Below are positions 32,699-46,606 of a stretch of DNA of 64,000 nucleotides, in pieces (positions within the stretch are counted from its first letter, which is position 1; every line of letters starts with the position of its first letter). The DNA lies in the NCBI GenBank assembly GCA_024281055.1, contig JAMXLF010000015.1, forward strand, positions 1 through 64,000, given 5' to 3'. Under the pieces are notes generated by a model, which had not been told where the DNA came from, did not search any database, and was given only the letters and a program-made list of their open reading frames with translations. The translations under genes and the position numbers were made by a program. The DNA comes from Geobacteraceae bacterium. Lineage in GTDB: Bacteria; Desulfobacterota; Desulfuromonadia; Geobacterales; Geobacteraceae.

Positions 32699-33043
32699 TC
32701 AGTACGGCCGCAGCTGGGCACCCGCACCGATGTGCCAGTGGAGGTGCTTGGAGGACTGGTACGCCCCCAGATTGGTATAGACGCGGGCCGCCCCGAAGCG
32801 GGCCATGAAATCACCGGCGATCAGCTTCGCGGCCTGCATCAGCTCCAGGAGCAGCTCGTTGTCCGACTCCTCCAGGGCAAGGAGGGATTCGACGTGCTTT
32901 CTGGGGAGGAGGACGACGTGGTTCTCCCACAGGGGGTTCGTGTGGTAAAAGGCGAAGACCCGCTCGTTCTCGAAGTAGACCGGGACGTCGAGAAGGCCCT
33001 TCAGGATCTTGCCGCAGTAAAAATCACAGGTGGGGTCGGTCAT
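32699..33043 (-). CDS. HIT-family nucleotide hydrolase
   Basis: 114 residues from the ATG at 33041-33043. The HIT signature HLHWH lies near residue 101 in SSKHLHWHIGAG, and an LPRKHVESL segment lies near 45. HIT enzymes hydrolyse nucleotide phosphoramidates and AMP conjugates. Its start overlaps the doc stop (ATGA), so it is coupled to the AbrB-Doc pair. Whether that link is functional is open. The C-terminal half seems short compared with Hint proteins. Confidence 0.88.
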   Translation of the reverse strand: MTDPTCDFYCGKILKGLLDVPVYFENERVFAFYHTNPLWENHVVLLPRKHVESLLALEESDNELLLELMQAAKLIAGDFMARFGAARVYTNLGAYQSSKHLHWHIGAGAQLRPY

Positions 33044-33444
33044 GGTGTGTGGGTTCCTCCTCGACTGCCGCGTGTATGACGGCGCAGCCATTCCTCCGCA
33101 TCCTTCGCCTTGGCCTTGCCCGTAGCCATCGCCATCGTGAACCGGTACAACTCGTCCTGGGATGTCTCGATCGGGGAGCCGCGCCGGGCGAGGAAAATGC
33201 CGGCCGCGGTGATCGCGGTGCGTTTGTTGCCGTCAACAAATGGATGATTCGTGATGATCGATTCCATGAGGGCGGCGGCTTTGGCAAAGATGTCCGGGTA
33301 GAGATCGTCGCCGTCGAAGGTGGCATCGGGCCGCGCTGCGGCCGCCTGCAACGCACCCAGGTCACGGACACCGTGGGCGCCGCCCGTCGCCTCGATGAGC
33401 CGGTAATGGATGAACAGGAGCTGCTGGGACGTCAGGGAATCCAT
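33040..33444 (-). CDS. doc: Doc/Fic-family toxin
   Basis: Death-on-curing-type protein, 134 residues. The Fic core HPFVDGNKRTAITAAGIFL near residue 67 has the Doc version of the motif (HxFxDxNKR), which in phage P1 Doc phosphorylates EF-Tu. It starts directly at the stop codon of the AbrB-type antitoxin gene and overlaps the HIT gene by 4 bases, forming a three-gene operon. Confidence 0.9.
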   Translation of the reverse strand: MDSLTSQQLLFIHYRLIEATGGAHGVRDLGALQAAAARPDATFDGDDLYPDIFAKAAALMESIITNHPFVDGNKRTAITAAGIFLARRGSPIETSQDELYRFTMAMATGKAKAKDAEEWLRRHTRGSRGGTHTP

Positions 33445-36063: not shown

Positions 36064-36102
36064 TCATTCAGCCCAGGCACCAAAAAGCCTGCATGCGCGC
36101 TG

Positions 36103-36185
36103 CATTCAGCTGCCGAGGAACTTGTGGGTGCGGTGCCAGGAGAGGTGCTGCTGCGCCGGCCGGTGGGTGGGGTTTGCGGGGACGC
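36103..36185 (-). pseudogene. HNH endonuclease 3'-end fragment, repeat copy R1
   Basis: Read on the minus strand it encodes VPANPTHRPAQQHLSWHRTH then KFLGS and a stop. This is the C-terminal end of the HNH family seen in longer form at 39696-39976. It starts at the very base after the VapC stop codon. Confidence 0.8.
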
Positions 36186-36560
36186 CTACTGTTTCGGGAA
36201 ATACTGCACGCCGGGGATGCCGCGGAAATGCTCATCCTGGGTCCAGAGGACCGCATCGTGAAGCCGGGCCGTCGCCAGTATGATGCTGTCGGCCATGGGG
36301 AGCGCCAGTTCCAGGCTCGTCTTTGCTGCGACCATCGCCAGGGACGGCGACAGCTCCACAGCTCTTCCCTGCTGCATGAGGGCTGCCGCCTGCAGGGCGG
36401 CGTCTTCTCCACGCTGGCGACACACCACTTTGAACACCTCGTAGATGGTGACCGTCGGGACGATGAGCGACGCCCGGTCAGCGAGAGGAAGAGCGAATTC
36501 CCCCGCATTCGGTCCGTCCGCGAAAAATTCCAGCCAGGCGGAAGAGTCAACGACGTTCAT
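36186..36560 (-). CDS. vapC: VapC-type PIN-domain toxin
   Basis: PIN-domain ribonuclease toxin, 124 residues from the ATG at 36558-36560. Acidic active-site residues are visible: Asp in MNVVDSSAWLEFF (residue 5), Glu in TIYEVFK near 41, Asp in LPMADSIILATA near 90 and Asp in LWTQDEHFRGI near 108. It overlaps the antitoxin stop by 4 bases. Its stop codon abuts repeat copy R1. Confidence 0.88.
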   Translation of the reverse strand: MNVVDSSAWLEFFADGPNAGEFALPLADRASLIVPTVTIYEVFKVVCRQRGEDAALQAAALMQQGRAVELSPSLAMVAAKTSLELALPMADSIILATARLHDAVLWTQDEHFRGIPGVQYFPKQ

Positions 36561-36843: not shown

Positions 36844-37041
36844 ATTATCCGTCTTGATCAGTTCAATCCGTCAGATCCGTGTGAAAGGTTTTATCGGGCA
36901 GGGCATTCAGCTACCGAGGAACTTGTGGGTGCGGTGTCATACGAGGTGGTGCTGCGCCGGTCCGTGGGCGGGGTTTGCGGGGATGGGTGATTTTCCTGTC
37001 TTTCATGCGGGCGAGGAGGCGTTTTCGGCTGGCGCAGGCTT
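36844..37041 (-). pseudogene. HNH endonuclease 3'-end fragment with ATCCGTGT block, repeat copy R2
   Basis: The plus strand begins TTATCCGTCTTGATCAGTTC and CATTCAG lies at 36904. The minus strand encodes a degenerate, frameshifted HNH tail (a LLARMKDRKIT part is still readable), longer than R1. It ends at the stop codon of the HEPN pseudogene. Confidence 0.75.
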
Positions 37042-37837: not shown

Positions 37838-38044
37838 AATCTGCCTTGATCCGTCCAATCCGTGTTGATCCGTGTGAAAGGTGTTTATCGGGCGGGGCAT
37901 TCAGCTGCCGAGGGATTTGTGGGTGCGGTGCCAGGCGAGGTGGTGCTGTGCCGGCAGGGGGGGCGGGGTTTGCGGGGAGAGCAGGAGGGCGGATTGGTCG
38001 GCTTCGAAAAAGTGTCGTTCGGCGACAAGGACGGTGAAGGGAGC
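37838..38044 (-). pseudogene. HNH endonuclease 3'-end fragment with ATCCGTGT block, repeat copy R3
   Basis: CATTCAG lies at 37898. On the minus strand FTVLVAERHFFEADQSALLL is readable, followed by an in-frame gap relative to R5 and then AQHHLAWHRTHKSLGS with a stop. The fragment joins the HEPN stop codon directly. Confidence 0.8.
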
Positions 38045-38805: not shown

Positions 38806-38949
38806 TCAATCCGCCTTGAGCTGTCCAATCCGTGTAAATCCGTGTGAAAGGTTTTTATCGGGCAGGGCATTCAGCAGCCGAGGAACTTGTGGGTGCGGTG
38901 CCAGGCGAGGTGCTGCTTGGCAGGCCGGTGGGCGAGGAGGGTGCGGACA
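38806..38949 (-). pseudogene. HNH endonuclease 3'-end fragment with ATCCGTGT block, repeat copy R4
   Basis: CATTCAG lies at 38868. The minus strand encodes AHRPAKQHLAWHRTHKFLG and a stop, the shortest tail together with R1. It abuts the stop of the BrnA-like antitoxin gene. Confidence 0.78.
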
Positions 38950-39225
38950 CTAGTGTCCGTGTCCCTCGTGCAGCTTCTCGTGGAGCCAGATCTTTATGAG
39001 CGACTGATAGGGGACATCCTTGCTGTTGGCGGCGGATTTGATCCCCTCCAGCAGGGAAACCGGCAACCGCAGGGAAATCGACTGGGTCGTCGGCTTCAGA
39101 TTGGGGAGGGCAACCCGTTTCGCCTGCGTCCAATCGACGTACTCGCTGGAATCATGCGTCTCCCAGAATTCCCGTTCTTCCTGCTCACTGGCGAATGCAG
39201 GGATTTTTTTACCTTGTCTTTTCAT
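38950..39225 (-). CDS. brnA: CopG/BrnA-type antitoxin
   Basis: 91 residues. The N-terminal SEQEEREFWETHDSSEYVDW (residues 13-32) and the ribbon-helix-helix part SISLRLPVSLLEGIKSAA near 49 to YQSLIKIWLHEKL near 73 match the CopG antitoxin family. It overlaps brnT by 17 bases and is the distal gene of the pair. Confidence 0.85.
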   Translation of the reverse strand: MKRQGKKIPAFASEQEEREFWETHDSSEYVDWTQAKRVALPNLKPTTQSISLRLPVSLLEGIKSAANSKDVPYQSLIKIWLHEKLHEGHGH

Positions 39226-39548: not shown

Positions 39549-39979
39549 ACAAGACCAGCACACGGATGGACACGGATTTAACGGATAAAATCAGATCAAT
39601 CGAAAAACTGCCTGTTACAGCAAACCCAGATGAAGGGTTTTATCCGCCTTGATCCGTCCGATCCGTGTAAATCCGTGTGAAAGATGTTTATCGGGCAGGG
39701 CATTCAGTTGCCGAGGGACTTGTGGGTGCGGTGCCAGGCGAGATGCTGCCGGGCGGGCCGGTGGGCGGGGTTTGCGGGGAGGGTGATTTTTCGGTCTTTC
39801 AGGCGGGCGAGCAGGAGGGCGGATTCGCCGGCTTCGGAGAAGTGCCGTTCGGCGACGAAGACGGTGTAGTCGTCGCTGATGGACCAGAGGCCGTTGTCGA
39901 AGAGCCAGTGGGCGTTTTTGGAAAGGGCGATGCCGTTGGTCAGGTCGTTGTTGCGGCTACGGGCGAACTCTGTAGTTGA
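39549..39979 (-). pseudogene. HNH endonuclease 3'-end fragment with ATCCGTGT block, repeat copy R5 (longest)
   Basis: CATTCAG lies at 39701. The minus strand from about 39976 to 39696 is open and reads NDLTNGIALSKNAHWLFDNG, then a variable part, then HRPARQHLAWHRTH, KSLGN and a stop, about 93 codons. This is the C-terminal half of an HNH endonuclease, aligning with NDDVRNGMALCRTCHWGFDE onward in the protein at 41038-42021. The 5' part, including the catalytic HNH core, is missing and replaced by the end of the Mrr-type gene. The left part (39549-39700) is the ATCCGTGT inverted repeat seen at R0. Confidence 0.85.
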
Positions 39980-41014
39980 CTATTCTGCCTTGTAAATTAG
40001 CGTCTGTTTGCACCGGGGATACCGGACACATCCCCAAAACTGCTCCCCGGCGTTTCGGCCTTTTTTCGACTCCCGCAGTTTCATCTTGATGTCGCACTGA
40101 GGACAAGTAGGCGTCCGACAATCGCCTTCCAACGCGATTTCCAGGAGCCTTTGTTGCTTTTCCTCGGGCAGTTTGCGGATATACTCGAGAAATTTCCAAC
40201 CGGGGATCAGCATGATTTTCTCTTTGGCAAATTCTTCAGCCTCCGAGGTAAATGTTCCTGATGTAATCAACATGCCATTTTTGATCTTCTCGGCAGCCAT
40301 GACACCGTATAGCTCACGTACCGGCTTTACGCCAACCCTATAGGTATTCCAAGCTTTACACTGGACGATGCCCTGAAAGGCATCAGTCCCCCGCTTCGTC
40401 ACACGGATATCGACACCGCCGTCCGCGCCCACCTTTGTTTCATGGGCGTCATATCCAGTCATGGTCAGGAATTCCCGAGTGACAGTCTCGAATCGCTTCC
40501 ACTCGATCATCTGCAGGACTGACTCACTCCAATGCTGAGGTAAAGGTTCAGCATGGGGGGGCTCGGCTACCGGATCACTGAATCCCTTTGAAAGCTCGTG
40601 CTGGAAATTCTGCTTGGCTGCGCTGTATGAGGCCGCATGTGGCATCGAAGCAGGAAGTTCCGTCGACACTCGTTTTCTGGGAGCCGGTGCAGCATCAAGG
40701 TGGTTTGACACAAAGATACCGTTTTGCATCTTTCGATACCCGTTTATACCCGAAAGGATGGCAGCAAAGACAAACGTGCCGGGTAAAATAATTTGGCCAA
40801 ACATCGCCAGCGTTGTAACCATGCCGTTGGCAACCGCGTTTCCCATTTGTCCTGGTGTCACCGTCTTCGGCATTATAGGGCGCGAGGATATTGCGTGGAG
40901 TATCACAAACGAAAGAAGCCCCAACAAAAGACACCCCCACCACGGGAGTCGGCTCGCCAGAATGATCAGATCTTCGAATGGACTTGTGCGCTGAGATCGG
41001 CTTCTTCTACCCAT
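39980..41014 (-). CDS. Membrane-anchored Mrr-type restriction endonuclease with zinc finger
   Basis: 344 residues from the ATG at 41012-41014. Two hydrophobic spans lie near residues 24-45 and 65-90, so the enzyme is probably anchored with its nuclease in the cytoplasm. The Mrr-like PD-(D/E)xK core follows: WKRFETVTREFLTMTGYDAHETKVGADGGVDI (residues ~170-200, the Asp) and GIVQCKAW near 215 (the QxK). A C-terminal topoisomerase-type zinc ribbon, CPQCDIKMKLRESKKGR to FWGCVRYPRC, ends the protein. Mrr relatives cut modified DNA; the target here is unknown. Confidence 0.82.
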   Translation of the reverse strand: MGRRSRSQRTSPFEDLIILASRLPWWGCLLLGLLSFVILHAISSRPIMPKTVTPGQMGNAVANGMVTTLAMFGQIILPGTFVFAAILSGINGYRKMQNGIFVSNHLDAAPAPRKRVSTELPASMPHAASYSAAKQNFQHELSKGFSDPVAEPPHAEPLPQHWSESVLQMIEWKRFETVTREFLTMTGYDAHETKVGADGGVDIRVTKRGTDAFQGIVQCKAWNTYRVGVKPVRELYGVMAAEKIKNGMLITSGTFTSEAEEFAKEKIMLIPGWKFLEYIRKLPEEKQQRLLEIALEGDCRTPTCPQCDIKMKLRESKKGRNAGEQFWGCVRYPRCKQTLIYKAE

Positions 41015-41037: not shown

Positions 41038-42021
41038 TTACATCCGCCACTGCCACCGGTGCTTGGCAAGATACTCCTGCGCCGGCCAAAGATCACGATC
41101 TACAGGCGGGATGATGCCGCGGCCAGAAAGCATGGAAAGCAGGCCGGGGAAGTTTGGGTCGATGCCGATGGCGCGGGAGGTGATGACCGTGTAGTTGTCA
41201 GACACGCCGAGCATCCCTTCGTCGAAGCCCCAGTGGCAGGTGCGGCAAAGGGCCATGCCGTTGCGAACGTCGTCGTTCCGGCTCTCTCGCCATGGGACGA
41301 TGTGGGCCGCCTCCACCACCGTGTGGCCGTCTGGCGTGACGATGCGAATGCCGCACAGGGCGCAGCGATGGTCGTAGGCCGTGGTCACCACCTTACGGAA
41401 CGCCTGGTCACGCGCCGCCGGACGATAGTTGTCCGCCTCCACGATCTCTTTCACCAACGGCATGTGGGCCTGCTCCTCCAGCAGCCGGCTGTACTCGAAC
41501 GCCTCCCGGTTGATGACCGACTGCTCCCGCAACTGCGCCGACGCCTCTGCCGAAAAGCAGGAGAAGAGTAGCGTTTCCCGCAGCGCTTCCCGTCCCTCCC
41601 CGCTCTGCATAAGCTGAAACAATCCGTCGTCCAGTTTCGCGCCCAGGGCGTACTTGCGCAGGTAGCTGACGGAGGAGGTGTTGTTGATGTCCACGTCGGT
41701 AATGGCTTTGTCCGGCTGGGGGACCAGTTCCCAGAATGGTTCGCGGGAGAGGCGGGAGAAAGGGAAGGCAATGCTGCTGGTCTGGCTTAAGGGGACGATC
41801 CGCCGCCAGTAGAGGTTGAACAGCTCGTTCAACTCTATCAAGTCGCCGGTGACATCGATGAATCGGGAGGTTATGGCACCCCGAGCAACCAAATCCAGTA
41901 CAGACAGAAGCAGGATGGGCTTATGAGGAGCGCGCTTCTTCGTGCTTTCGGTCCACATCTGCCCCGGCGCCCTGTTGAGTCTGGCAAACTGCTTGATATA
42001 GGTTTCGAGCTCCGTCATCAT
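41038..42021 (-). CDS. HNH endonuclease (defence-type)
   Basis: 327 residues. The N-terminal ~190 residues contain RAPHKPILLLSVLDLV near 31 (a DUF-like restriction-associated region). The C-terminal zinc-binding HNH core has CALCGIRI near 220, VEAAHIVPW near 235 and NGMALCRTCHWGFDEG near 251. The last part, SDNYTVITSRAIG to AKHRWQW, is the region duplicated as fragments R1-R5. Its ATGATGA start overlaps the HIT stop, so it belongs to one operon with HIT and the helicase. Confidence 0.88.
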   Translation of the reverse strand: MMTELETYIKQFARLNRAPGQMWTESTKKRAPHKPILLLSVLDLVARGAITSRFIDVTGDLIELNELFNLYWRRIVPLSQTSSIAFPFSRLSREPFWELVPQPDKAITDVDINNTSSVSYLRKYALGAKLDDGLFQLMQSGEGREALRETLLFSCFSAEASAQLREQSVINREAFEYSRLLEEQAHMPLVKEIVEADNYRPAARDQAFRKVVTTAYDHRCALCGIRIVTPDGHTVVEAAHIVPWRESRNDDVRNGMALCRTCHWGFDEGMLGVSDNYTVITSRAIGIDPNFPGLLSMLSGRGIIPPVDRDLWPAQEYLAKHRWQWRM

Positions 42022-42413
42022 TTCTTCCAGTAAGGTGCCTTTTCAGGCATGATCCACCGCACCCCGCCGCGCGGGTCTTCCGTGTCGCCGGTGTAGCGCG
42101 GGATTAGGTGGATGTGCAGGTGCATGATAGTCTGGCCGGCGGCAGTGCCGTCGTTGATGCCGATGTTGAAACCGTCGGGGCTTCTCTCTTTCAGCAAAAG
42201 CTGACGTATTTCGGTCAGCAGGTCGAGCATTGCCGCCTGCTCTTCACCGGTTGCTTCGAAGAAGGAGGCAATGTGCCGCTTAGGGACTATCAGGCTATGG
42301 CCCGGCGTCACGGGGAAGCCGTCATAGATAGCCATTGCGTGGTCGTTGGCAACGATGACTCGGGATTTGTCCGGATTGCAAAAGGGGCAGATGTGATGAT
42401 TGGCGATCTCCAT
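42018..42413 (-). CDS. HIT-family hydrolase in the helicase/HNH operon
   Basis: 131 residues. CPFCNPDKSRV near 9 (zinc-binding Cys pair), TPGHSLIVPKRHIASFF near 36 and the HIT motif MHLHIHLIPRY near 96. Relatives hydrolyse AMP or other nucleotide conjugates. Placed between the PLD-helicase gene (47-base gap) and HNH gene (overlap), an arrangement that suggests it is part of the same system. Confidence 0.88.
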   Translation of the reverse strand: MEIANHHICPFCNPDKSRVIVANDHAMAIYDGFPVTPGHSLIVPKRHIASFFEATGEEQAAMLDLLTEIRQLLLKERSPDGFNIGINDGTAAGQTIMHLHIHLIPRYTGDTEDPRGGVRWIMPEKAPYWKK

Positions 42414-42460
42414 TTGTCATTGTCTCATGTCTGGGGCTGACCCCGCACTTTCTTGCTCAC

Positions 42461-45400
42461 CTATCCACCCCGCCGATTATCCTCAAACATCTCCACCGGC
42501 ATGGCATACCTGAGCCGCCAGACCATCTTGATCGGCCGCTCGCTCTCATAACTCACCATATCCACCGGTCCAAGGTAGGTGAACGGCACCGTCACATTGT
42601 TCCGCTTCTTCTGCCCACGGGCAAAGACCAGAATCGTGTAACCCCGCTCCTGATGGTGAATCAGGTTCCGCCCGTCGGCGTGGTGCTGGGCGGTGTTGGC
42701 CTGTGACTCCCAGTGCAGCAGTTCCCGGCTGATGGGGTAATCCGCATACATGGTGCTGGGGGAGAACTCCTTTTCCGTCTTCTGGAAGGTCACCAGCAGG
42801 GCATAGGCCTTGATGTCGGCAAAGTGGAACGAACCGACCCCGGTTTGACCGGCGCTTTCCAGATTGGCCCGGCCAAAGGCGGCTTGGATCTCCTTGTTGC
42901 CGTACTGGGCGTGCAGCTCCAGCGGCACGGTAGCCGGAAACTCCAGAGAGGTTCCTGCTACCTCGGTGCTATCCAGCGACCAGGCCAGTATCTCATCCAG
43001 ATCGGCGCAGACCGTTGGGTTGGCAGCCAGTCGTTGGAAGGCATCCGCCAGCGACGCTACCCCCACTTTCACCGCCTTATCCCCCCAGATACGGTAATAG
43101 AGCAGCATGGCCGATAAACCGGACAGCTCAAGCGCCTCAGCCACCTGTCCGGCCGCAAGCATGGTCAGCATCTGCCGCAGCAGTGCCGCTTCCCGTGGCC
43201 CATTGATGAAGGCGGCCCGGAGCAGCGCTTTCTTCAGGCGCGCCAGATCGGGATCGACCGGGATCGGTGCCAGTTGGGCCTTGGCTTTCCACTCGCTCCA
43301 CGATTCCTTGGCCAGCAGCACCTCCGGCTCATAATCGTGGTAGCGGATAAAGTTGCCAAAGGTGAGCTCCTGACCCGTTTCGTTTGTAAAGGTCTGGAGC
43401 CGGTCCGGCACCTGAACGGCCAGCCGGCCGAGGTTTTCATGGATGTTCTCCAACACATACTGGCGGGAGAGCCGATCGAGCTGGATGGCGCAGCCGGCCG
43501 GGAGGTGGGGGAAATCCTGCTCCACTTCCTTGTCGATGGAGAAGCGGTGCCGGGGGAGAAGCGCTTTCAGTTTGGTGTCGATGCGGTAGCGGCGGTGGGC
43601 CTGACCGACAAAGTCGAGCACGGTGAGGCAGTCCTTCTCCGGGGCATGGCGCAGGCCGCGGCCGAGCTGCTGGAGAAAGACCGTCAGGCTCTCGGTGGGG
43701 CGCAGGAAGAGGACGGTGTTAATCTCCGGCACGTCCACCCCTTCACTCAGCTTGTCCACAGTGAAGAGGAAGGTGAGCTGGCCGTTCTTCAGCCGGGCCA
43801 GCAGGTCAGCACACTGGTCGCTGTCGCTATTGGAGGTAAAAGCGGCTGACGGGATGCCGTGCTGGCTGAACTGCTCGGCCATGTATTCGGCATGGCGGAT
43901 AGTGACGCAGAAGCCGATCCCCTTGAGGCTCGCCACGTCCGGCTCGTAGCAGTGCAGGGCGGTGATGATCGCCGCCACCCGCTGGCGGGCGCGAGCCGGG
44001 TCTAGCACGTAGACATTCTCCAACGCGGCAGCATCGTACTTGCCGCTCTTCCAGAACTGGTCGCCGTTGATAGCGATGGGGTCGGCAATGCCGAAGTAGT
44101 GGAACGGGCAGAGAAGCTTTTCCTCCAGCGCTTCGGGGAGGCGGATCTCGGCGGCAAAGCGGTTGCCGAAGTCGGCGGCCACGTTGTCGCCGTCCATCCG
44201 CTCCGGGGTAGCAGTGAGGCCGAGGAGAATCTGCGGGGTGAAGTGGTCGAATATGGGGCGATAGCTGCTGGCGGTGCCGTGGTGGGCCTCGTCAACGACG
44301 ATGTAGTCGTAGAAGCCTCTCCCTACCTGCTCCCAGAGCCGGCGGGAGGCGAGCATGCCAACGGAGCAGAAGAGGTGCTCCAGGCGGGTGGCTTCAAAGG
44401 GGCCGACCTGCAGCTCGCCGAAGTTCTGGTCCCGCAGGATATTGCGGAAGGTGCCGAGCGCCTGCTGGAGAATCTCCTGCCGGTGGGCAAGAAAGAGCAG
44501 CCGCGCCTGGCGCTGGCGCTGGTCAAAGAAGCGCTTGAAGTCGAAGGCCGCCACCACGGTCTTGCCGGTGCCGGTGGCGGCAATGACCAGATTGCGCCAG
44601 CGGTCGTGGGCGCTCCGCTCCCGCTCCAGCGCCTCCAGAATCCGCTCCTGAAACGGGTGCGGGGTAAGATCGAAGAAGACCGGCGGGCCGCTGGCATCTC
44701 TGTTTTTGGCGCGGGCCAGGGCACTGCGAAACTGCTCCGGGTCAAAGGGGGCAAACTCCCGGCTGTTCCAGTAGGTCTCGAACTCGACAGAGAACTTCTC
44801 CAGCACATGGGCCATGTCCTGGGCGGTGACTTTCAGGTTCCACTCCAACCCGCTGGTGATGGCCGCCTGGGACATGTTGGCCGAACCGATGTAGGCGGTG
44901 GTGAAGCCGCTCTGGCGCCGGAAATGGTAGGCCTTGGCATGGAGCCGGGTCCGCTCGGTGTCGTAGGAGACCCGCACCTGCACATTGGGGAGCTTGGCCA
45001 GCCACTCCACCGCGGGGGCATCGGACGCCCCCATGTAGGAGGTTGTAATCAGCCGCACCGGCACCTGCCGGTCGCGCAGGTCCTCAAAGGCCGGCATCAG
45101 CAGCCGCAGGCCCGACCATTTGATGAACGACACCAAAATGTCCACACCGTCGGCGGAGCGCATCTCCTCCAGCAGTTCATGAGCCAGTTGCGGTTCCTGA
45201 GGGGAGCCGGTAAAGAGGCTGCTTTCGGCAAGGGAAGTGTGGGGTCGGGGGAGGCCGGATTGGCCATAATTTGGAGGTGTAATTTCGAGGAGAAGCGGCT
45301 TCTTTTCCGGGACGAGGCGATGCTTTTCAAGGTGCCTACGACCCGGGTCGCTGGCAACCTGAGCTAGAATTCGGTTGCAGAGCACCAACCTCTGTTCAGG

Positions 45401-45580
45401 GTCCGATTCCTCTCTTAGTGCCTGTTCCAGAACTTTAGACACGAAAGCGGCATAGCGGGCAGGCTGTTCCTCCGGATCCAATTTACCAAAAACAGTCCTC
45501 AGTTCCGGATGTCGTGACAAGATGTCATGCAGACATTCGTCAATGAGTGCTTCGTATATGCCGGAAGTTATTTGCATCAT
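42461..45580 (-). CDS. PLD nuclease - DEAD/DEAH helicase - DUF3427 protein
   Basis: 1039 residues. Order: helical N-terminus (1-110); PLD-like nuclease domain (about 130-265) with the HKD-type signature HAKAYHFRRQ and GSANMSQ near 212-233; superfamily 2 helicase with Walker A AATGTGKTVVAAF near 333, DEAH box VVDEAHHG near 425 and motif VI QQLGRGLRHAP near 635; then DUF3427 (about 690-1030). Such proteins are common in defence islands and are thought to act on phage DNA. First gene of an operon with HIT and HNH. It is driven by a promoter-leader shared with hicBA. Confidence 0.9.
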   Translation of the reverse strand: MMQITSGIYEALIDECLHDILSRHPELRTVFGKLDPEEQPARYAAFVSKVLEQALREESDPEQRLVLCNRILAQVASDPGRRHLEKHRLVPEKKPLLLEITPPNYGQSGLPRPHTSLAESSLFTGSPQEPQLAHELLEEMRSADGVDILVSFIKWSGLRLLMPAFEDLRDRQVPVRLITTSYMGASDAPAVEWLAKLPNVQVRVSYDTERTRLHAKAYHFRRQSGFTTAYIGSANMSQAAITSGLEWNLKVTAQDMAHVLEKFSVEFETYWNSREFAPFDPEQFRSALARAKNRDASGPPVFFDLTPHPFQERILEALERERSAHDRWRNLVIAATGTGKTVVAAFDFKRFFDQRQRQARLLFLAHRQEILQQALGTFRNILRDQNFGELQVGPFEATRLEHLFCSVGMLASRRLWEQVGRGFYDYIVVDEAHHGTASSYRPIFDHFTPQILLGLTATPERMDGDNVAADFGNRFAAEIRLPEALEEKLLCPFHYFGIADPIAINGDQFWKSGKYDAAALENVYVLDPARARQRVAAIITALHCYEPDVASLKGIGFCVTIRHAEYMAEQFSQHGIPSAAFTSNSDSDQCADLLARLKNGQLTFLFTVDKLSEGVDVPEINTVLFLRPTESLTVFLQQLGRGLRHAPEKDCLTVLDFVGQAHRRYRIDTKLKALLPRHRFSIDKEVEQDFPHLPAGCAIQLDRLSRQYVLENIHENLGRLAVQVPDRLQTFTNETGQELTFGNFIRYHDYEPEVLLAKESWSEWKAKAQLAPIPVDPDLARLKKALLRAAFINGPREAALLRQMLTMLAAGQVAEALELSGLSAMLLYYRIWGDKAVKVGVASLADAFQRLAANPTVCADLDEILAWSLDSTEVAGTSLEFPATVPLELHAQYGNKEIQAAFGRANLESAGQTGVGSFHFADIKAYALLVTFQKTEKEFSPSTMYADYPISRELLHWESQANTAQHHADGRNLIHHQERGYTILVFARGQKKRNNVTVPFTYLGPVDMVSYESERPIKMVWRLRYAMPVEMFEDNRRGG

Positions 45581-45624: not shown

Positions 45625-45778
45625 AAAGCCGCTTCATCAGCTCTTCCACTGACAAAACAGCCTCGTTACCTCTTCCGCTCCCGCGTATGTTCCCCGCGTT
45701 CCCACCACATTAAAGCGCCCCTCATAACATCGCAAAATTACTAGTCTTTAATACGCCGTTTATATCCATTAGTCAAGG
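45625..45778 (-). promoter_or_regulatory. Promoter-leader module of the helicase operon (copy 1 of duplicated ~155 bp)
   Basis: Minus-strand TTGACT (45771-45776), 17 bases, TATTAA (45748-45753), then a leader of roughly 165 bases containing tandem GGAAGAG..TAACGAGGC and GGAAGAGCTGATGAAGC units around GTTTTGTCAGTG. Nearly the same sequence precedes hicB at 46447-46606. Confidence 0.7.
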
Positions 45779-45990
45779 ATGAACCTGTCACGCCGCCTCC
45801 TTCCACTTCTTCTCCCGAAGCTCCAGCAACATCGCCCGCGCTTGAACACCTTCTTCCTGGCCGCTTCATGCCGCTGATAATCCTCGATTCTTAAAGGATG
45901 AAGTATGAATGATGAATTATGAAAAATAAACCTGCGACAGGCCAAAGGAGGAAGGATAAAACTCACCCTTCTATTTCAACACATGAATTG
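45779..45990 (-). pseudogene. Possible gene relic and repeat region
   Basis: The minus strand carries a readable tail ARAMLLELREKKWKEAA with a stop (45787-45845) in one frame and DYQRHEAARKKVFK in another, as if a small helical protein gene had been frameshifted. AAGGATGAAGTATGAATG (45895-45912) is an AAGGATGAAG-type repeat. No intact gene is visible. Confidence 0.35.
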
Positions 45991-46446: not shown

Positions 46447-46606
46447 CCCTATATACCGCCCCATCAGCTCTCCCACTGACAAAACGGCTCCGTTAGCTCT
46501 TCCGCTTATGCGTATGACACCCGCGCTCCCACTCCATAACCACACCCCACATAACATCGCAAAATTATCTGATTTTAATATATGATTTATTCTTGATAGT
46601 CAAGGA
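46447..46606 (-). promoter_or_regulatory. Promoter-leader module of hicBA (copy 2 of duplicated ~155 bp)
   Basis: Minus-strand TTGACT (46598-46603), 17 bases, TATTAA (46575-46580), then a leader matching 45625-45778 (shared AACATCGCAAAATTA, CACTGACAAAAC and ATCAGCTCT blocks on the plus strand). Confidence 0.72.

Follow-up and report, generated by a model that had tools for sequence, protein, structure and literature searches.

Recurrent coupling of a HIT hydrolase gene to nucleases, seen from a SauUSI-type restriction locus of a Geobacteraceae bacterium

Two kinds of restriction enzyme and one accessory protein are the closest described counterparts of the genes considered here. SauUSI contains, in this order, a PLD nuclease, an SF2 ATPase and a C-terminal DUF3427/SRA part; its C-terminal target-recognition domain adopts an SRA fold that reads and needs 5mC (PMC7913695), and an earlier proposal had already assigned the reading function to DUF3427 (PMC3874153). 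The phosphorothioate (PT)-dependent endonucleases EcoWI, SprMcrA and SBD-Hga (NCBIfam model NF045808) join a sulfur-binding domain (SBD) to an HNH nuclease, and the residues of the sulfur pocket have been defined as H, R/K, Y (variable) and P (PMC6224610). In the Thoeris type II system, the HIT protein ThsC is an extra gene found in 2.4% of Thoeris systems, for which a signal role has been suggested (PMC8565338).

The window, which is the whole stretch of 64,000 nucleotides that was analysed (contig JAMXLF010000015.1, assembly GCA_024281055.1), contains on its minus strand a gene cluster best read as a stack of predicted modification-dependent (type IV) restriction modules. Its features are as follows.

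45625..45664, minus strand: terminator-like hairpin of 17 pairs with a T-rich tail, upstream of the helicase gene and between it and the HicAB genes
42461..45580, minus strand: SauUSI-type protein of 1039 aa (PLD nuclease, SF2 ATPase, DUF3427), predicted ATP-dependent, 5mC/5hmC-dependent type IV restriction enzyme (Pfam; PADLOC mREase_IV PDLC03659; PDB 7clg); hereafter the helicase
42414..42460, minus strand: gap of 47 bp from the helicase stop to the HIT ATG, with no terminator-like site on this strand
42018..42413, minus strand: HIT hydrolase of 131 aa (Pfam HIT), motif HLHIH intact, a recurrent coupled partner of nucleases
42018..42021, minus strand: overlap of 4 bp between HIT stop and HNH start (ATGA within ATGATGA; ORF coordinates)
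41038..42021, minus strand: putative SBD-HNH nuclease of 327 aa, with an N-terminal sulfur-binding-type domain (H33-K34, P87) and a C-terminal HNH_2 domain
39980..41014, minus strand: fourth gene, for a membrane-anchored Mrr_cat nuclease with a Top1-type Zn ribbon (Pfam), also found immediately behind the HNH gene in relatives

These coordinates confirm what the first-pass annotation had reported, namely three co-directional ORFs with a 47-bp gap and an ATGATGA overlap; all three are intact. The domains that it had assigned are all matched (by PLDc_2, ResIII, Helicase_C and DUF3427; HIT; HNH_2), with intact catalytic motifs, and the surroundings are indeed crowded with toxin-antitoxin (TA) and restriction genes. 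It had overlooked the fourth co-directional gene, which starts 23 bp past the HNH stop and whose product has hydrophobic segments at the N-terminus. No terminator-like site lies on the minus strand between the helicase, HIT and HNH genes, and the cluster may be expressed as a single transcript. The defence role that had been suggested finds support in the presence of a SauUSI-type type IV restriction enzyme, an SBD-HNH nuclease and an Mrr protein.

The helicase belongs to the SauUSI type of type IV restriction enzymes, and its dependence on 5mC/5hmC is predicted. It has the domain order of SauUSI, with Pfam matches to PLDc_2 (E=7e-10), ResIII (2e-32), Helicase_C (7e-12) and DUF3427 (3.6e-20, over 843-1033), and is covered almost entirely by the PADLOC model mREase_IV PDLC03659 (E=1.7e-196). 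Long sequence similarity links it to the SauUSI structure (PDB 7clg, E=3.8e-82), the C-terminal DUF3427 region aligning weakly to 7clg 833-918. The PLD motif HxK...GSxN is present, RLHAKAYHF...IGSANMS aligning with GFHAKGYIF...IGSSNLT of SauUSI, together with the SF2 ATPase motifs (Walker A ATGTGKT, DEAH, TATPER and QQLGRGLR). More than 30 near full-length copies (69-100% identity) occur among 277 class-mates, and 70 loci were found in named genomes, with Nitrospirota, Chlorobiota, Acidobacteriota, Verrucomicrobiota and Actinomycetota among the phyla represented; such a distribution across several phyla implies that the gene moves between lineages. DNA similarity between the window and the helicase relatives ends at the gene borders. 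The SauUSI-like relatives at L088-L091 (labels in L and G are ours, for loci and genomes) are 1290-1390 aa long, and those of L088 and L091 have a methyltransferase domain at the N-terminus and an S24-peptidase-like domain inside the chain.

Unlike SauUSI as described, the relatives of this helicase are often made together with a NUDIX protein, a MazG protein or, in the window, HIT. Upstream sequence was long enough to judge in about 55 relatives, and in 22 of these the helicase gene is preceded, at no more than 100 bp and mostly with an overlap, by a gene for a MutT/NudG-like NUDIX protein. Such pairs occur in six phyla (Desulfobacterota, Nitrospirota, Chlorobiota, Fibrobacterota, Verrucomicrobiota and Actinomycetota), and the same order is found on plasmids of Hymenobacter and lactobacilli; in L. 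plantarum, a NUDIX, a SauUSI-type enzyme and a MazG-like protein are encoded in a row. The NUDIX label changes many times on the helicase tree, which points to repeated gain or loss with the helicase gene. The nearest relatives of the window's helicase have the upstream NUDIX and the window does not, so that loss, or replacement by HIT, is suggested, though only suggested. A tblastn search of the window with the NUDIX protein gave nothing significant, and the genome itself contains only a chromosomal MutT-like gene at 39%. The PDB relatives of the NUDIX protein include MutT2 and a CTP pyrophosphohydrolase; the entry 2rrk is E. coli NudG. Hydrolysis of 5-methyl-dCTP has been reported for MutT (PMC10742078).

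The first-pass annotation had presented helicase, HIT and HNH as a candidate new operon, in other words as one integrated three-gene defence system. The shared direction, the short gap, the 4-bp overlap and the lack of a terminator between the genes are in keeping with this, as is the fact that five other loci (L166/G257, L169/G106, L058, L084 and L099) have a gene of the same HNH family that runs in the direction of the helicase gene and is no more than about 600 bp away from it. However, among about 60 helicase neighbourhoods HIT adjoins the helicase only in this genome, and G257, from the same order as the window's host, has helicase then HNH, as in the window, without HIT. DNA similarity to the helicase relatives stops at the gene ends, and the nearest of them have NUDIX upstream instead. 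An integrated trio is thus highly improbable, and the trio was rejected as a conserved unit. PADLOC v2.0.0 has no model that joins helicase, HIT and HNH, and no paper describing the trio was found, newer catalogues lying outside the search. Of the grounds for refutation given with the first-pass annotation, a match to something already named applies to the helicase, which is of the SauUSI type, but not to the HIT-HNH pair, which co-occurs widely.

The HNH protein can be read as an SBD-HNH modification-dependent nuclease, on the evidence of alignments and of a predicted fold. Its HNH_2 domain is matched by Pfam (E=1e-12), and the protein aligns by sequence to SBDHga1. The NCBIfam PT-DNA restriction model NF045808 matches it with E=8e-37 and 126.9 bits, below the curated cut-off of 180 bits. 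A structure model built from 8 relatives is confident only over about residues 32-170; the HNH half, with pLDDT <50 from residue 192 on, was left out of the structural comparison. With the predicted N-terminal domain, Foldseek gives as best PDB entry SBD-Hga with PT-DNA (8h0l, TM by target 0.80-0.84), followed by the ScoMcrA SBD (5zmn and 5zmm). The sulfur pocket, aligned with that of SBDHga1, consists of H33, K34, F86 and P87, of which K34 and P87 are invariant in the 8 relatives and H33 is replaced by Y in one. A search for DndC shows that the host genome lacks dndC, which is what a PT-cutting enzyme would lead one to expect. The window's protein thus shares with EcoWI, SprMcrA and SBD-Hga the SBD fold, the H-K and P pocket residues, HNH_2 and a host without dndC; it differs from them by F in place of Y164, by R at the A168 position and by its sub-cut-off NF045808 score. 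Phosphorothioate is the likeliest mark to be read by this protein. HIT and Mrr partners, a further difference, are not mentioned where the EcoWI study (PMC7461809) deals with gene neighbourhoods. On a Chlorohelix plasmid (L232:5001-10939), an HNH relative (41%) is convergent to a dndB-E-D-C cluster, an unusual place for an enzyme expected to cut such DNA; this proximity also counts in favour of the explanation put forward below.

The product of the fourth gene shares the Mrr_cat domain with Mrr-type nucleases but differs from them in being membrane-anchored, in its Zn ribbon and in the absence of a Pfam match to the Mrr N-terminal DNA-binding domain. The HNH-Mrr pair is found again in L064, L167, L174 and L183, and G190 repeats the window's HIT-HNH-Mrr arrangement exactly. 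HIT and SBD-HNH, with or without the membrane Mrr, are therefore best read as a separate recurrent module placed behind the helicase, and it is the coupling of nuclease and hydrolase, not the trio, that gives the locus its interest.

The coupling of HIT genes to nucleases is real and recurrent. The window's protein matches the Pfam HIT family (E=4e-23), and its relatives were counted from class and phylum searches and fetched regions. Of the 74 distinct HIT relatives, 26 have a nuclease gene in the same direction at a distance of no more than 150 bp. These cases include both gene orders and more than one type of nuclease and come from three phyla (Desulfobacterota, Betaproteobacteria and Bacteroidota); HxHxH is kept in all HITs of the count. 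SBD-HNH is downstream of HIT in the window, G041, G042 (twice), G190, G199, G201, G244 and G273, and upstream of it in G018, G110, G114 and G118. Other partners are a nuclease of the NERD type, a fusion of an SBD with an McrB-like NTPase (G222), PLD-helicases with an N-terminal MazG-like (PRA-PH) domain (G191, G241 and G245), and members of two HNH families (L156 and L149 types) that resemble the window's SBD-HNH in sequence little or not at all. A sequence search of the PDB with a second HNH family gave no useful match. Outside Desulfobacterota, HIT-nuclease pairs are carried by plasmids of Polaromonas, Aromatoleum, Hymenobacter and Persicobacter. The viral contigs scanned for carriers of HNH and HIT yielded none.

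It could be argued that a housekeeping HIT gene has simply been shuffled next to nucleases by chance within defence islands. The region is crowded with TA and restriction genes, the contact between helicase and HIT is peculiar to this genome, and 48 of the 74 HIT relatives have no such nuclease adjoining, for example the Geomonas copies located beside a DsbH-type gene. Against this stand the close contacts on one strand, at a few bases or with an ATGA overlap, which recur in both gene orders, with several nuclease families and in three phyla, and the tandem duplication of the HIT-HNH pair in G042. Adjacency at such spacing in so many places would not be expected by chance from gene density, which is our judgement and not a formal probability, and plain island neighbourhood appears unlikely. 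HIT is nonetheless optional: within the class, the majority of SBD-HNH genes lack an adjoining HIT. The distant phylum HITs (L203-L227), a contrast set with short flanks, have none of these partners.

Several individual loci deserve mention. At L172:5544-8754 (G042), the duplication extends over the entire HIT-HNH pair. At L187:3833-6882 (G222), HIT overlaps the gene of the SBD-McrB-like fusion from the upstream side, the common element being the modification-reading domain and not the nuclease. At L175:5422-6594 (G201), the HIT protein, encoded upstream of the HNH gene, has a 240-residue N-terminal domain without a Pfam or NCBIfam match.

The explanation that we tentatively prefer, while granting that it may well be wrong, is that modification-dependent nucleases travel with nucleotide hydrolases and that HIT clears modified nucleotides from the pool. 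In the SauUSI-type enzyme, the DUF3427/SRA part would read 5mC or 5hmC, ATP would drive the SF2 motor and the PLD domain would cut. The SBD would read a modified DNA backbone or base, most likely phosphorothioate, for cutting by the HNH domain. HIT, made together with the nuclease, would be an accessory hydrolase acting most probably on modified or conjugated mononucleotides, either released from destroyed marked DNA or made by the invader. By turning them back into ordinary nucleotides it would keep them out of the host DNA, so that the host is not targeted by its own nuclease. For phosphorothioate DNA, a plausible reaction is dNMPS -> dNMP + H2S, as reported for human HINT1, although HINT1 desulfurates dGMPS far more slowly than GMPS (PMC8775712). 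Three unrelated hydrolase families, HIT, NUDIX and MazG, are tied to modification-dependent nucleases, which suggests one logic, that of keeping modified nucleotides from host DNA. Several points weigh against pool cleaning: HIT substrates are very diverse, most SBD-HNH genes of the class do without HIT and many HIT relatives without such a nuclease, and a nuclease that cuts at few sites frees no mononucleotides, so that other exonucleases must follow. The sub-cut-off match to the NCBIfam PT model also speaks against the explanation as a whole. The part of the earlier proposal in which HIT processes a nucleotide signal or adduct is consistent, as regards nucleotide processing, with the nuclease context of HIT.

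The signal part of that proposal corresponds to another function: by producing or degrading a nucleotide signal, HIT would turn the nuclease on or off, serving as an off-switch or guard in the way suggested for the ThsC protein of Thoeris type II (PMC8565338). ThsC provides a precedent as an extra HIT gene, the window's HIT matches the ThsC model (E=1.3e-12) and partnership with many nuclease types would suit a general regulator. The ThsC match is, however, of ordinary HIT strength. Both proteins are HIT proteins accessory to a defence system, but no ThsA or ThsB is present beside the window's HIT, whose neighbours are the SauUSI-type helicase, HNH and Mrr, and it is partnered by DNA nucleases that have DNA-reading domains themselves. 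The annotated loci of Polaromonas, Aromatoleum, Hymenobacter and Persicobacter show no coupling of the pair to a cyclase, TIR or SIR2 gene, and SBD and SRA sense DNA modification directly, which makes a messenger unneeded. Taken together, a signalling function is a minority prospect.

HIT superfamily enzymes act on AMP conjugates. An aprataxin-like action on DNA ends can be derived from this property, HIT then removing the 5′-adenylates of failed ligation at nuclease breaks and thereby preventing invader repair or protecting host DNA; the fact that all partners are DNA nucleases agrees with it. The window's protein is however a bare HIT of 131 aa without a DNA-binding extension of the aprataxin kind, and the parallel NUDIX and MazG partners would be left unexplained, which makes this action improbable.

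Destroyed modified DNA would release modified nucleotides, and a cell recycling them into its own chromosome would become the target of its own enzyme. No work was found on how type IV systems avoid self-targeting via recycled nucleotides; the coupling of three unrelated hydrolase families to such nucleases makes the question directly testable. It also points to two recurring gene pairs that can be sought and to candidate substrates for otherwise anonymous HIT and NUDIX proteins. A broader proposal, possible but advanced with more reserve, is that modification-dependent restriction nucleases as a class have a metabolic arm, in which co-translated HIT, NUDIX and MazG destroy modified nucleotides coming from or made by the invader and keep the marks out of host DNA; HIT with SBD-HNH (and Mrr) and NUDIX with SauUSI (and MazG) would then be two undescribed system types. 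Helicase and HNH protein belong to known kinds, and the pairing of HIT or NUDIX with nucleases is probably, though not certainly, new. Neither HIT-HNH nor NUDIX-SauUSI is named or described in PADLOC 2.0.0 or in the literature searched, newer catalogues and most subscription papers being outside its scope. No work connecting type IV restriction with HIT or NUDIX was found there, and in the one paper that names both SauUSI and Nudix the passages concerned describe no such link.

The surroundings of the cluster show further features. The HicAB genes, which immediately precede the helicase gene, are bracketed by the two copies of a 151-nt direct repeat (75%; 45629-45779 and 46456-46606). Five dispersed 106-nt repeats (73-100%; 36089-36194, 36890-36995, 37884-37989, 38854-38959 and 39687-39792) each code, on the minus strand, for the C-terminal tail of an HNH endonuclease (ending in RPAQHHLAWHRTHKFLGS and a stop). 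Between successive repeats, 800-1000 bp apart, lie TA modules assigned by eye as AbrB/VapC-like, MNT/HEPN-like (twice) and BrnTA-like, and the whole resembles cassettes punctuated by one same gene end. A truncated HNH_2 remnant (39725-39979, minus strand; Pfam E=7.5e-8) lies in the same frame as the Mrr gene and runs on right past its stop codon, and 5′ or 3′ fragments of the window's HNH family are also present in many relatives. A second, different HIT gene (32699-33091) is located directly after, and overlaps, a Fic/Doc gene (33040-33444), both on the minus strand.
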